Source: Falsiroseomonas bella
Lineage (GTDB): Bacteria; Pseudomonadota; Alphaproteobacteria; Acetobacterales; Acetobacteraceae
DNA length: 64,000 nucleotides
Direction of reading: 5' to 3'
NCBI RefSeq assembly: GCF_003173615.1
Contig: NZ_QGNA01000002.1
Location: forward strand, 248,001-312,000
The position numbers and the translations under genes are program-made. How positions within the stretch are numbered: position 1 is the stretch's first letter; the number at the start of each line of letters is the position of its first letter. Positions 47,184 through 52,845 of the stretch are shown piece after piece. A model generated the notes under the pieces. It was not told the DNA's origin. It ran no database searches and worked only from the letters and a program-made list of their open reading frames with translations.

Positions 47184-48284
47184 TCAGATGTTGTGTCCGC
47201 CAACGAGCGTCGCTCCGAACTCCGCCAGCACGGCCGCAATCGGCATGATGTAGGTAACGCCGCCAGCCTGACCGCCCAGGATCAATCCGACGGCAGCAGA
47301 CCCGTCCTCGGTGACAACCAGGGATCCGCTGTCGCCGAACGTGGAGAATTCGTCTCCATGGAGACCCGCGACCGACCAGACGCCTTCGAAGTGGACGTTC
47401 GCCTTGAATTGCGGGGCGGCGTAGGGGAAGACGAGCGGCGTCTTCACCTCGCCGACCACTCGCCCACTGGTCAAACCTGACGTCCTCCCGACCTTCTTGA
47501 GGCGCATCTGTGCGGCGGGAGGCACCACGGCAGCGGGCGTATCGTACTGCTTGTCGCCCTGCCAGCTGGTCACGAGGTTCTCGTCGTTGATGGTGAAGAT
47601 GGCGACGTCCAGCCGCTGCTTTGAAAGCTGACCGGGATCGCCTGCCCTTATCTCCGCCAGTCGCAGATGCTTGCCGATCGCCGTCGGCGGCGGTTGATTC
47701 ACGGCGGCATCAACCGTCGAGGGGCACATGACGTGCATTCCGACTTCCGTGTAATTGCACGCCCCCGTGACGTGGTTGTTCGTGAGCCCGCAAAGACGGC
47801 CGTCAGCCAGCCGGATCAACGCGCCCATCGTGCCCGCCGAGTGAATCGGAGCCGCCGTGATGGAGCTGCCGCACGCGAAGCGGCCTCCGGGCGTCCAGAA
47901 CCGCGATCCGCCAAGGGCCGCAGAATGCGGCGCCACACTCGGCGGAAAGCTTGGTGCTTCGGCATGACCAAGGAACTCGATGGAGAAGTCGCCGAGCTTC
48001 GTCGGAAGGCTCCTGATCGCCGCCTCAGACACCTGGGTCTTGACCAGGACGCCGACATGGTTCGCGTCATCGTCCGCGACGACCGCCACGACCTTCATCT
48101 TCCTCAGGCGCTCGACGGCCTGCGCTTGCTTGGCGTCGCAACTGACCCCTAGGTAGGTCGCGAGCCCGGGTCCACCCAGGCCGCTGCCTGATCCGTCGGC
48201 GAGGGCGCCGACCTCCTTGGCCCACTCATAAATGCGGCCTGCCATCCAGGTGGCGGTCCGACCAGAACCGGCGCTGTCGAGCAT
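47184..48284 (-). CDS. Trypsin-like serine protease (cytoplasmic)
   Basis: Protein of 366 residues with a chymotrypsin-fold protease from about residue 150: His in LTNNHV (about 170), Asp in LDVAIF (about 226), Ser in FGDSGS (about 317). The first 140 residues are unlike known prodomains. No signal peptide or membrane helix, so it acts in the cytoplasm. The ATG at 48284 (GGGA upstream) is preferred to 48386, whose extra residues look random. It is divergent from a sigma-factor-like/HTH gene pair with a 263-bp gap, and its 3' end is 30 bp from the convergent DruE gene. Substrate unknown; one attractive idea is cleavage of the neighbouring regulator or sigma factor. Confidence 0.82.
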   Translation of the reverse strand: MLDSAGSGRTATWMAGRIYEWAKEVGALADGSGSGLGGPGLATYLGVSCDAKQAQAVERLRKMKVVAVVADDDANHVGVLVKTQVSEAAIRSLPTKLGDFSIEFLGHAEAPSFPPSVAPHSAALGGSRFWTPGGRFACGSSITAAPIHSAGTMGALIRLADGRLCGLTNNHVTGACNYTEVGMHVMCPSTVDAAVNQPPPTAIGKHLRLAEIRAGDPGQLSKQRLDVAIFTINDENLVTSWQGDKQYDTPAAVVPPAAQMRLKKVGRTSGLTSGRVVGEVKTPLVFPYAAPQFKANVHFEGVWSVAGLHGDEFSTFGDSGSLVVTEDGSAAVGLILGGQAGGVTYIMPIAAVLAEFGATLVGGHNI

Positions 48285-48547
48285 CGTACGTTCCCAGCAA
48301 GGCGGGCTGAACGCCCGATTCGTATGTTCCCGAATCGTGCCATGTGGCGCCCGCGATCCGCTACCAGGAAGCGATCGGCTGTCCACATCTTTTTCTGCGG
48401 AACGACTTCCGATCGGAGGCTGCGTGGATCGCTACCCCACTGCAGGGTGGATTGGTCCCTCGCTGGACCTAAGCCCGAGGAGGCAACCACAACACGGGGA
48501 GGCAACGATGTCTGGTCTGGGAACGAGAGAGAGAATGGAGTTCAAAA

Positions 48548-49210
48548 ATGTCGGTTACCTCTGGTGCAGGAAACGAGCCGGGCACTGACGCCTCTGCATG
48601 GATCGAATCGCTGCGTGACGGTTCGCTTCGGAAGCGGCGAGCCGAAGAGATCTTCCGGGCATGCCGCGGCATGGACCCCGAGAGGGATCAGCGGGTTCTG
48701 GGCGAGCTTCTGCAGGAGCTGGCGGACCGCGCCACGCGCCACCTGCGGAAGCGCGTGAACAGGAATCTGCCCAACGAGGGGCTCGATCTGATCCAGTCAG
48801 CCGTCGACAAGATGGTTGACGCGGCCCTCGGACCGGATTCCCCCGACGCCGAAGGCTTCTGTCAGGCTTTCTATGCCCGGCTCAGCTTCAGGCTCACCGA
48901 CCGAATCCGGAGCGCAAGCCGGATCGGCGACAGGGAGCAGCCGTACGTCAGGGATGAGGAAGGTAACGAAATCCCGGCGCCCGACTTTAACGCGATCAAC
49001 CCGGAGCAGGCGCTCGTCATCAAGGAGCTACTGGCCGATGTGGATCCGCGAAAGAGGCGGGCGCTGGCCCTGGTCAGCATGGGCTATCTCGTCTCATCAG
49101 CCGACCCCGACAAGCAGACGGTGAGCTCGCTCTTGAAGGTGAGCCCCAGAACGGCCGAGGGATGGGTGCGAGAGATGAAGGCCCTGATCCTCGAAAGGAC
49201 GAAACAATGA
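48548..49210 (+). CDS. Sigma70-family-like transcription factor
   Basis: Protein of 220 residues with a sigma-factor layout: a region-2-like helical part (AFYARLSFRLTDRIRSASRIGDREQP) and a C-terminal region-4-like HTH (DPRKRRALALVSMGYLV, then VSSLLKVSPRTAEGWVREMKALI). There is an extra loop in region 4. The ATG follows GGAG by eight bases. It is coupled by an ATGA overlap to the HTH gene downstream, as sigma/anti-sigma or sigma/co-regulator pairs often are, and is divergent from a serine protease. It could direct transcription of the protease, itself or the ubiquitin-like operon. A bona fide RNA polymerase interaction is not proven. Confidence 0.65.
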   Translation: MSVTSGAGNEPGTDASAWIESLRDGSLRKRRAEEIFRACRGMDPERDQRVLGELLQELADRATRHLRKRVNRNLPNEGLDLIQSAVDKMVDAALGPDSPDAEGFCQAFYARLSFRLTDRIRSASRIGDREQPYVRDEEGNEIPAPDFNAINPEQALVIKELLADVDPRKRRALALVSMGYLVSSADPDKQTVSSLLKVSPRTAEGWVREMKALILERTKQ

Positions 49211-49821
49211 ACAAGGACGCCGATGCCGTCCTGCTCGACGAGGTTCTCTTCGCCTTCAGGCGGGACAACGCTCTGCCCACGCCTGACGCCGTGAGCGACT
49301 GGTGCAGGCGCCATCCCCGCTTCGCAGAGGACATCCAGGAGGAGGCGATGCTCTGGGCCGAGGAAGAGATGATGGCGGCGCTTCATCGTCACTTGCCCGA
49401 GGACGAGGCGGTGGTTCAGGAGGCGCGTGCACGTGCGGTGAAAGCTGTGGAGCACGGCGCTGCGCGCGTCGCCGCGGCAAGCTCCGATACCTTCGCCGAC
49501 GCCCTTCGATCTGCCGGGATCGATCAGGCCGAGGCGGCCCGCCAGCTCGGGATGCCAGCTTCGGTGCTGAAGCGACTTATCCGCGGTGAAATCATGGGGG
49601 CCACGATCCCGCAGACGTTCACCTACATGCTCTCGCGCCTGCTAGGGCAAGCCGAAGAATGGGTGCTCGCGCGCTACCCCGCGACGCTTGCGGCGGCACA
49701 GGACGCCTCGTGCCGCCCAACGCCCGGAGCGGGGTTCGGGACGATCTCATTTCAGGAGGCGGTCGCCGATGCGGACGACGCCACCGAAGAGGAGCGCGCG
49801 TTCTGGCTTGAGGAAGCCTGA
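49207..49821 (+). CDS. Helix-turn-helix protein coupled to the sigma-like gene
   Basis: Protein of 204 residues. The N-terminal 90 residues are acidic and helical (LPTPDAVSDWCRRHPRFAEDIQEE; AEEEMMAALHRHLPEDEAVVQEA). A central XRE-like HTH reads FADALRSAGIDQAEAARQLGMPASVLKRLIRGEI. The end is acidic. ATGA overlap with the sigma-like gene implies production in fixed ratio and a common function; it may be a negative partner of the sigma-like factor or the sensor that is cut by the protease. A terminator follows. Confidence 0.65.
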   Translation: MNKDADAVLLDEVLFAFRRDNALPTPDAVSDWCRRHPRFAEDIQEEAMLWAEEEMMAALHRHLPEDEAVVQEARARAVKAVEHGAARVAAASSDTFADALRSAGIDQAEAARQLGMPASVLKRLIRGEIMGATIPQTFTYMLSRLLGQAEEWVLARYPATLAAAQDASCRPTPGAGFGTISFQEAVADADDATEEERAFWLEEA

Positions 49822-49854: not shown

Positions 49855-49889
49855 CGGCCCCGGGCTTCGGCTCGGGGCCGCGTCTTTTT
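49855..49889 (+). terminator. Rho-independent terminator after the sigma/HTH genes
   Basis: CGGCCCCG and CGGGGCCG form an eight-base-pair stem with a ten-base loop, followed by CGTC and five T. It ends the sigma/HTH transcript 34 bp after the stop, so the downstream ubiquitin-like operon needs its own promoter; a TTGACG element is visible at 49964-49969. Confidence 0.75.
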
Positions 49890-50006
49890 CGGCCCCTGCG
49901 ATCCTACCCAAGAATTCTTTCGGCCCAGCTTCCGATCTTGGCTCTCTTCCCTCGCTAAGCCATTGACGGGGCAAAGAGGTGCCCTTTGGGATCGGAGGAT
50001 CCGAAG

Positions 50007-51462
<1,456 letters not shown>

Positions 51463-51466
<4 letters not shown>

Positions 51467-52845
51467 ACGCGTTCACCCGGTTTTCCCCCGAGACGATGCA
51501 CCGGGGCGCGAAGCTGTTCATGGATCGTGGCGACGCGCCTTCCTACGGCGAGGCGCTCGGGATGCTCGAACGGCTCCGCCTCGACATCGCCATCGGCGAG
51601 GGCGCGGCATGCACCGAAGCCGGGCAGATCGCGCTGCTCACTGCGGTCAATCTGGCCCGGAGAACCATGCTCGGCGGCGTGCGGGTCATCTGCTGCCCGG
51701 ATGAACCCTGTCTGACCCGTCTCGGTGCCGCCGCGACCCTGCGGGGCGCCGTCCTCGAACTGGGCGGGATGCATTCGCTCGCTCCGGTCGGGGGAGCTAC
51801 GACCTTGGTGATCGGAGATCCTGCATTCAGCCTCTCCGATCCCCGCGGCCTGCGCGTCACCTGGAGCGAATGGTCAGGGGGCGTCGTCCCCATCCGGGAT
51901 GACCGCAGACTCTCCGAGCCGCGCGGTGGCGGACTCGGCCCGGTGCTGGCGGCCGCCATCGCGGTCGGGGATGCATTCCAGTCGGCCACGGGCGAGACGC
52001 CCGATGCCGGACGCCGAGCGGTCGGCCTGTCGCTCTGGAATCCCGGCGCGTGTTGGATGGCATCGGACCCAGGCGACACCCGACTTGCCTGGCTGCCTTC
52101 TCGTCTGTGGTTGATCGGGCTCGGCAATCTCGGGCAGGCGTTCCTGTGGTGCCTTGGGGCGCTGCCGTATTCCCGGGCGGGCGACCTTGCCGTCACGCTC
52201 CAGGACGACGACGTGGTCCAACCGTCGAACGACAGCACCTCTGTGCTGACCTCGGCGTCCTCGTTCGGGAAGGCGAAGGCCAGGATGGCTGCGGCCTGGG
52301 CCGAGGGCGTCGGGTTCCGGACGCGCGTCGTGGAGCGGCGCTTTGGTCCATGGACACGGCGCGCGGACGAGGCCGGAGATCCAGCCGTCGCACTCTGCGG
52401 CGTGGACAACGCGCTCGCCAGGATGGGACTCGAGGACGCTGGCTTCGCGGGCGTGTTCGAGGCCGGTCTCGGCGCCGGACCTCAGGGCTATCTGAACCTG
52501 GCCACGCACGCCTTCCCGGGGGCGGCACGGGCGCGGGACATCTGGTCGAGGGTCAGCCAGCGCGCCGCGACCGAGAACCCGGTGGGCCGCCCTGCGTACG
52601 AGGCGGCGGCCCGGGAGGGGATGGGCCAGTGCGGGCTGTTGACCCTCGCGACCCGCACCGTCGGCGTCCCGTTCGTCGGGGTGGCTGCCGCGACCTTGGT
52701 GATCGCGGAGATCCTCCGGCGTATCCACGGCGGGGCGGGCCTCGACGCGTGTTCCTTGTCGCTGTCCTGCCCCGGCGACGCGGAGGTGGTCGAGGCTTCG
52801 ACCCGATCTGCCTACCTCGGAGGCACGGCGCCTGCGGCCGCCTGA
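51463..52845 (+). CDS. bilD: BilD-like E1 ubiquitin-activating enzyme
   Basis: ThiF/E1-type adenylating enzyme of 460 residues. An N-terminal domain of about 200 residues precedes a Rossmann ATP site LIGLGNLGQAFL (about 217), the LQDDDVVQPSNDSTS acidic/Asn region and a catalytic cysteine candidate in GMGQCGLLTLATRTVGVP (about 390). It activates the C-terminus of the BilA-like protein and loads the E2. Its last 34 bp overlap the convergent dinB gene. Confidence 0.85.

Follow-up and report, generated by a model that had tools for sequence, protein, structure and literature searches.

The DNA analyzed here (hereafter the window) is a 64,000-nucleotide stretch of the Falsiroseomonas bella genome (contig NZ_QGNA01000002.1, positions 248,001 to 312,000), in which a gene for a sigma-like protein overlaps a gene for a helix-turn-helix (HTH) protein directly ahead of a bacterial ISG15-like (Bil) operon. 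On the other side of the pair lie a trypsin-like protease gene and then a DruE3-like gene (PADLOC), in line with the Druantia-like and Bil flanks described in an initial annotation of the locus. That annotation treated protease, sigma-like and HTH genes as one unit; we tested that grouping and found that the pair belongs with the operon downstream instead.

A sigma-like/HTH pair ahead of a Bil operon

The features of the pair and the operon are the following:
48406..48434, + strand: promoter-like motif CTTCCGATC-N14-TCGCTA before the sigma-like gene (exact match)
48548..49210, + strand: sigma-like gene (family profile; AlphaFold model)
49207..49821, + strand: HTH gene, overlapping the sigma-like gene by ATGA (family profile, model, weak Pfam HTH_3 match)
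49855..49880, + strand: terminator-like hairpin with a T run, between the HTH gene and bilA (-25.4 kcal/mol, z -2.3)
49929..49957, + strand: second motif copy, past the terminator and before bilA (exact match; 49 bases from motif end to the bilA ATG)
50007..50498, + strand: bilA, ubiquitin-like (PADLOC BilA, E 2.7e-39)
50503..50988, + strand: bilB, E2-like, with Ser in place of Cys (PADLOC BilB, E 3e-60; alignment)
50942..51466, + strand: bilC, JAB (PADLOC BilC, E 2.7e-62)
51463..52845, + strand: bilD, E1-like (PADLOC BilD, E 1.9e-149)

The sigma-like protein has no match of its own to the Pfam sigma families. Its relatives do: that of locus L014 exceeds the cut-offs of both Sigma70_r4_2 and Sigma70_r4, and that of L016 reaches Sigma70_r4_2. 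The AlphaFold model resembles, with moderate scores, regions 2 and 4 of extracytoplasmic function (ECF) sigma factors, the two folds that characterize sigma-70/ECF factors. The HTH protein is predicted to have helices at its N terminus and an XRE-type HTH in its C-terminal half. The ATGA letters at the junction of the two genes, already pointed out in the initial annotation along with the terminator after the HTH gene, recur in 51 of the 67 homologous pairs examined. A small sigma-like protein, an overlapping downstream gene and a motif before its own gene recall ECF sigma factors with co-transcribed partners, which are known to autoregulate. The partner differs, however, in carrying an XRE-type HTH, and no anti-sigma fold appears among the structural matches listed for the HTH protein model, which are taken up by one domain. 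A search of a phage collection with the window sigma protein and a search of plasmids with the window HTH protein returned no matches.

All four Bil proteins are encoded together and recognized by PADLOC (E 2.7e-39 to 1.9e-149). The BilB of the window departs from its family at one position: it has Ser in a column occupied by Cys in 81 of the 86 aligned sequences. Ser is also found there in L081, Val in L038 and Tyr in L018 (L020 is misaligned). The catalytic cysteine is given as Cys138 in the available text of PMC11354881. Judging from the C-x5-E-x-H spacing, this column appears to correspond to Cys138, with the fourth residue of the motif out of line, and the window protein, with Ser, does not display the E2 catalytic cysteine of Bil. 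Regulation thus looks intact in the window copy, but its conjugation chemistry may not be.

Conservation of a sigma/HTH/helicase cassette

To ask how general the arrangement is, we compared 89 Bil loci (one of which, L064, lies on the same plasmid as L013). The genome loci came from an alignment scan with E1, one genome per species, that found 255 relatives, of which the best 80 were used; the nine plasmid loci comprise L003, found through a sigma match, and 8 of the 36 records matched by E1. By record title, these 80 span Alphaproteobacteria to Planctomycetes, Acidobacteria and Chloroflexi. A Rhizobium phaseoli plasmid, found by tblastn with the sigma protein, illustrates the order of genes: sigma, HTH (with an ATGA-type overlap), UvrD helicase, ubiquitin-like, E2-like, JAB and E1. 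No trypsin-like protease is encoded in this stretch. The Rhizobium helicase carries Peptidase_M78, UvrD and PDDEXK domains, each over its Pfam cut-off, and HE..H is present in 64 of the 67 helicase open reading frames (ORFs) longer than 1,000 amino acids; the protein resembles UvrD proteins of the GajB type.

Relatives of the sigma, HTH and helicase genes (hereafter the cassette) occur together, anywhere in the locus, in 66 of the 71 Bil loci whose E1 ORF has 6,800 or more bases of DNA upstream (65 of 70 with L064 and L013 counted once). This association distinguishes the loci from Bil as described in the available text of PMC11354881, which consists of four genes. Frames are split in L020 and L094, and the cassette of L072 and L074 lies on the other strand, beyond E1. 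The opposite-strand position downstream of E1, also seen in L070, indicates that the cassette and the bil genes are open to rearrangement. The remaining five loci are varied: L017 has sigma and HTH genes without a helicase, L012 and L019 have no cassette relative, and in L018 the helicase profile matched a stand-alone ImmA/IrrE gene on the opposite strand. The fifth, L027, belongs to Collimonas sp. OK412, which we take to be the main experimental Bil strain; only the 3' part of a helicase stands before its bilA (L027:6965-8434), and sigma or HTH relatives were not found in this locus. With shorter upstream DNA, L062 resembles the window in having sigma and HTH genes without the helicase. Viral contigs yielded one Bil-like locus, L171, without the cassette.

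At the window locus, a profile search of the ORFs detected no helicase relative, and none lies between the HTH gene and bilA. A second copy elsewhere in the host was considered and rejected, as the sole match to the cassette helicase in the rest of the genome covers its generic UvrD part only; two M78 genes are also present elsewhere in that genome. The window HTH gene is not linked to an M78-type protease in the manner of CapH+CapP.

Two side observations concern the surroundings of these loci. In the Mesorhizobium locus L018, which has no cassette, divergent HTH, ImmA/IrrE peptidase and exonuclease genes lie upstream (L018:5009-7314) and resemble a CapH+CapP-type controller. Genes annotated as CHAT, caspase-family or S8 peptidases occur near the cassettes of several loci (L013:10409-12625, L153:14984-16528, L015:80-2278 and L017:12958-16387).

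The cassette also stands beside other ubiquitin-like genes. The HTH profile matched 22 of the 398 genomes searched, and in six of these, the window's own among them, sigma and HTH relatives are adjacent. The other 16 matches are weaker (E ~1e-6 to 1e-4), and the ~3.2 kb retrieved contained no sigma or helicase relative; we regarded them as unrelated HTH proteins. The other five genomes with adjacent genes encode the cassette, helicase included, with no recognized Bil gene alongside; the ORFs picked downstream in them have Multi_ubiq, Prok-E2_E, ThiF with or without JAB, DUF6527 or DUF6791 domains (two ThiF matches in DUF6791 proteins are under the Pfam cut-off, and for L134 and L135 the ThiF protein alone was tested). 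Similarly, the M78 part of the helicase matched 36 plasmid records, and all six of the new ones that were fetched match the sigma, HTH and helicase profiles. Multiubiquitin and ThiF genes are annotated next in five of them (Mesorhizobium, Agrobacterium, Cereibacter, Acinetobacter and Leptolyngbya), four with DUF6527 too, and the sixth, from Aquincola (L154), has only a short BilA relative. Altogether, ten loci without recognized Bil genes have Multi_ubiq, ThiF, DUF6527 or DUF6791 genes next to the cassette. The cassette is portable and links two ubiquitin-like pathways.

Matched promoter-like motifs

The pattern CTTCCGATC-N14-TCGCTA has exactly two sites in the window, one before the sigma-like gene and one before bilA, and the two copies agree at every fixed position. 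In shuffles, 0.14 matches are expected even with two mismatches allowed. A pattern shorter by one base, TTCCGATC-N14-TCGCTA, matches exactly at only the same two sites across the 5.9-Mb genome; one further site has one mismatch and 11 have two. As these 14 places compare with 18 for the reversed pattern, the inexact matches in the genome are background.

In the gaps before bilA, a TTCCG element recurs from locus to locus, with CG 17-18 bases further on. Since bilA was where the motif first came to light (along with both sites of the window), a cleaner test is given by the sigma side of the remaining loci. There, in the region from 300 bases ahead of the sigma gene to 30 bases inside it, the motif was found in 32 of 72 loci, the window among them, versus 109 of 3,600 random segments (3.0%); at bilA it was found in 32 of 82 loci versus 56 of 4,920. 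TTCCG alone, within 230 bases, precedes bilA in 69 of 81 loci and the sigma gene in 62 of 72, against 18.8 and 14.6 in shuffles.

Both positions carry strict copies in 27 loci. The CGNN element is common to both copies in 25 of these, a level reached by none of 20,000 permutations (mean 11.6), and the spacing is also common to both in 25. After single-linkage clustering of E1 at 60% identity, which is as far as the permutations account for the tree, the CGNN agreement holds in 12 of 13 (5.5 expected, p 0.00015); for the base triplet following TTCCG the figure is 11 of 13 (5.5 expected, p 0.00045). The spacers of the two copies are unlike (mean 41% identity, 21% in the window), which makes a recent duplication of the motif unlikely. 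Among the ten cassette loci without recognized Bil genes (L154 left out), a variant (TACCG or TTCCG) lies on the payload side in eight and on the sigma side in only one, compared with 3.6% of random 220-base segments.

A proposed controller of ubiquitin-like conjugation genes

The conserved association, the sigma-like fold, the matched promoter-like pair and the terminator before bilA are all computational observations. Together they make it likely, in our assessment, that the pair at 48548-49821 is devoted to the transcriptional control of the Bil operon beside it, and that it probably switches on both itself and that operon through the matched promoters. The sigma factor would drive its own gene and bilA from the shared motif, and the HTH protein would keep the sigma factor inactive or gate the promoters. 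In complete loci, the M78-UvrD-PDDEXK protein could sense DNA damage or phage DNA and cleave the HTH protein, by analogy with CapP on CapH (PMC13373217) and with IrrE, which acts on DdrO. The sigma factor so freed would produce a self-amplifying burst of conjugation genes.

Controllers of immune operons are known. In the parts of PMC13373217 that were available, upstream genes that control an operon on DNA damage are described for Bub and for five Bil operons: 219 of 544 Bub operons have CapW or CapH+CapP, 59 of 544 have CapK+CapS, and so do the five Bil operons. CapH+CapP likewise combines an HTH protein and a peptidase; a sigma/HTH/UvrD cassette is not mentioned in the same parts. The controllers described there are repressor-based, whereas the output of the cassette is a sigma-like protein that has twin promoters; the cassette's protease domain sits within a UvrD-PDDEXK protein. 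Among the titles and abstract openings listed by literature searches, none describes such a cassette, which we provisionally regard as a new form of immune-operon controller.

Several alternatives bear on this interpretation. The window locus could be decaying, its sigma/HTH pair being left over from a module that was once complete. The missing helicase, the generic UvrD match as its only counterpart in the host and the Ser of BilB all point in this direction; the frames are nevertheless open and the promoter copies identical at every fixed position, and we consider decay less likely than not. Decay of this copy can in any case be reconciled with a controller role for the pair, and the finding at the level of the family is unchanged by it. 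It is less probable still, and in our view unlikely, that the cassette is an effector arm in which the helicase-nuclease attacks phage DNA, the sigma and HTH proteins control the cassette only and bilA-D are independent neighbors. Its GajB-type UvrD resemblance and PDDEXK domain would suit such a role, as would its occurrence with other payloads, yet ubiquitin-like conjugation genes come next in the loci examined, the same motif precedes payload and sigma gene, and the window retains the sigma/HTH pair without the helicase.

The protease itself was also analyzed:
47184..48386, - strand: trypsin-like (NAL1-like) protease gene, judged a bystander (invariant triad columns, weak Nal1_C match; not in the 89 other Bil loci)

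The His-Asp-Ser triad reported for it is real: His (NNHV), Asp (LDVAIF) and Ser (GDSGS) lie in invariant columns of an alignment of four sequences. The catalytic residues align with those of the plant NAL1-like trypsin family, although the Nal1_C match of the window protease (25.3 bits) is under the family cut-off (26.1); two relatives exceed the Pfam cut-offs, L004 for NAL1_N and L005 for Nal1_C. Translation may in fact begin at an internal ATG near 48284. The gene shows no link to the regulators. Its profile matched none of the 89 Bil loci, L017 and L062 included, and no sigma, HTH or Bil relative was found in the DNA fetched around 11 protease relatives (eight genomic and three plasmid, three of these stretches ending early at contig ends). 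Among 12 protease loci compared, the only other family common to more than one locus was shared by a single pair, L140 and L142. In the plasmid relative L004, a radical SAM gene and a HEXXH peptide-modification gene precede the protease (L004:5016-8597).

The protease as partner of the sigma/HTH pair was thus rejected, the original grouping failing the co-occurrence test that had been named for it, and the protease looks like an unrelated bystander. That the three genes form one undescribed defense or regulatory system, with the HTH protein as substrate of the protease, is very improbable given these counts and the absence of any motif copy facing the protease in the window, even though the genes adjoin there and, the M78 helicase being absent from the window, L017 and L062, another protease could conceivably stand in for it in this one locus. 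Parts of the originally proposed mechanism survive in altered form. Cleavage of the HTH partner is plausible for the family, with the M78 domain of the UvrD helicase, absent from the window copy, as the linked protease; a freed sigma factor acting on its own gene and on the Bil operon agrees with the matched motifs, and its action on the protease does not.

Returning to the sigma/HTH pair as controller of the Bil operon, we can tentatively entertain a broader possibility: that at least two kinds of bacterial ubiquitin-like system share a portable three-gene switch, in which an M78-UvrD-PDDEXK protein reading damaged or invading DNA cuts the HTH protein and frees a self-amplifying sigma factor acting on co-evolving twin promoters. 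The window would then have lost its sensor-protease, which the trypsin-like protease could have replaced. In the Collimonas sp. OK412 locus, the helicase is reduced to a 3' part and neither a sigma nor an HTH relative was found, so the Bil system studied in the laboratory could represent a shortened seven-gene system. A conserved cassette built around a sigma factor, together with two recognizable promoters, gives direct experimental access to the way in which ubiquitin-like immunity of bacteria is turned on.
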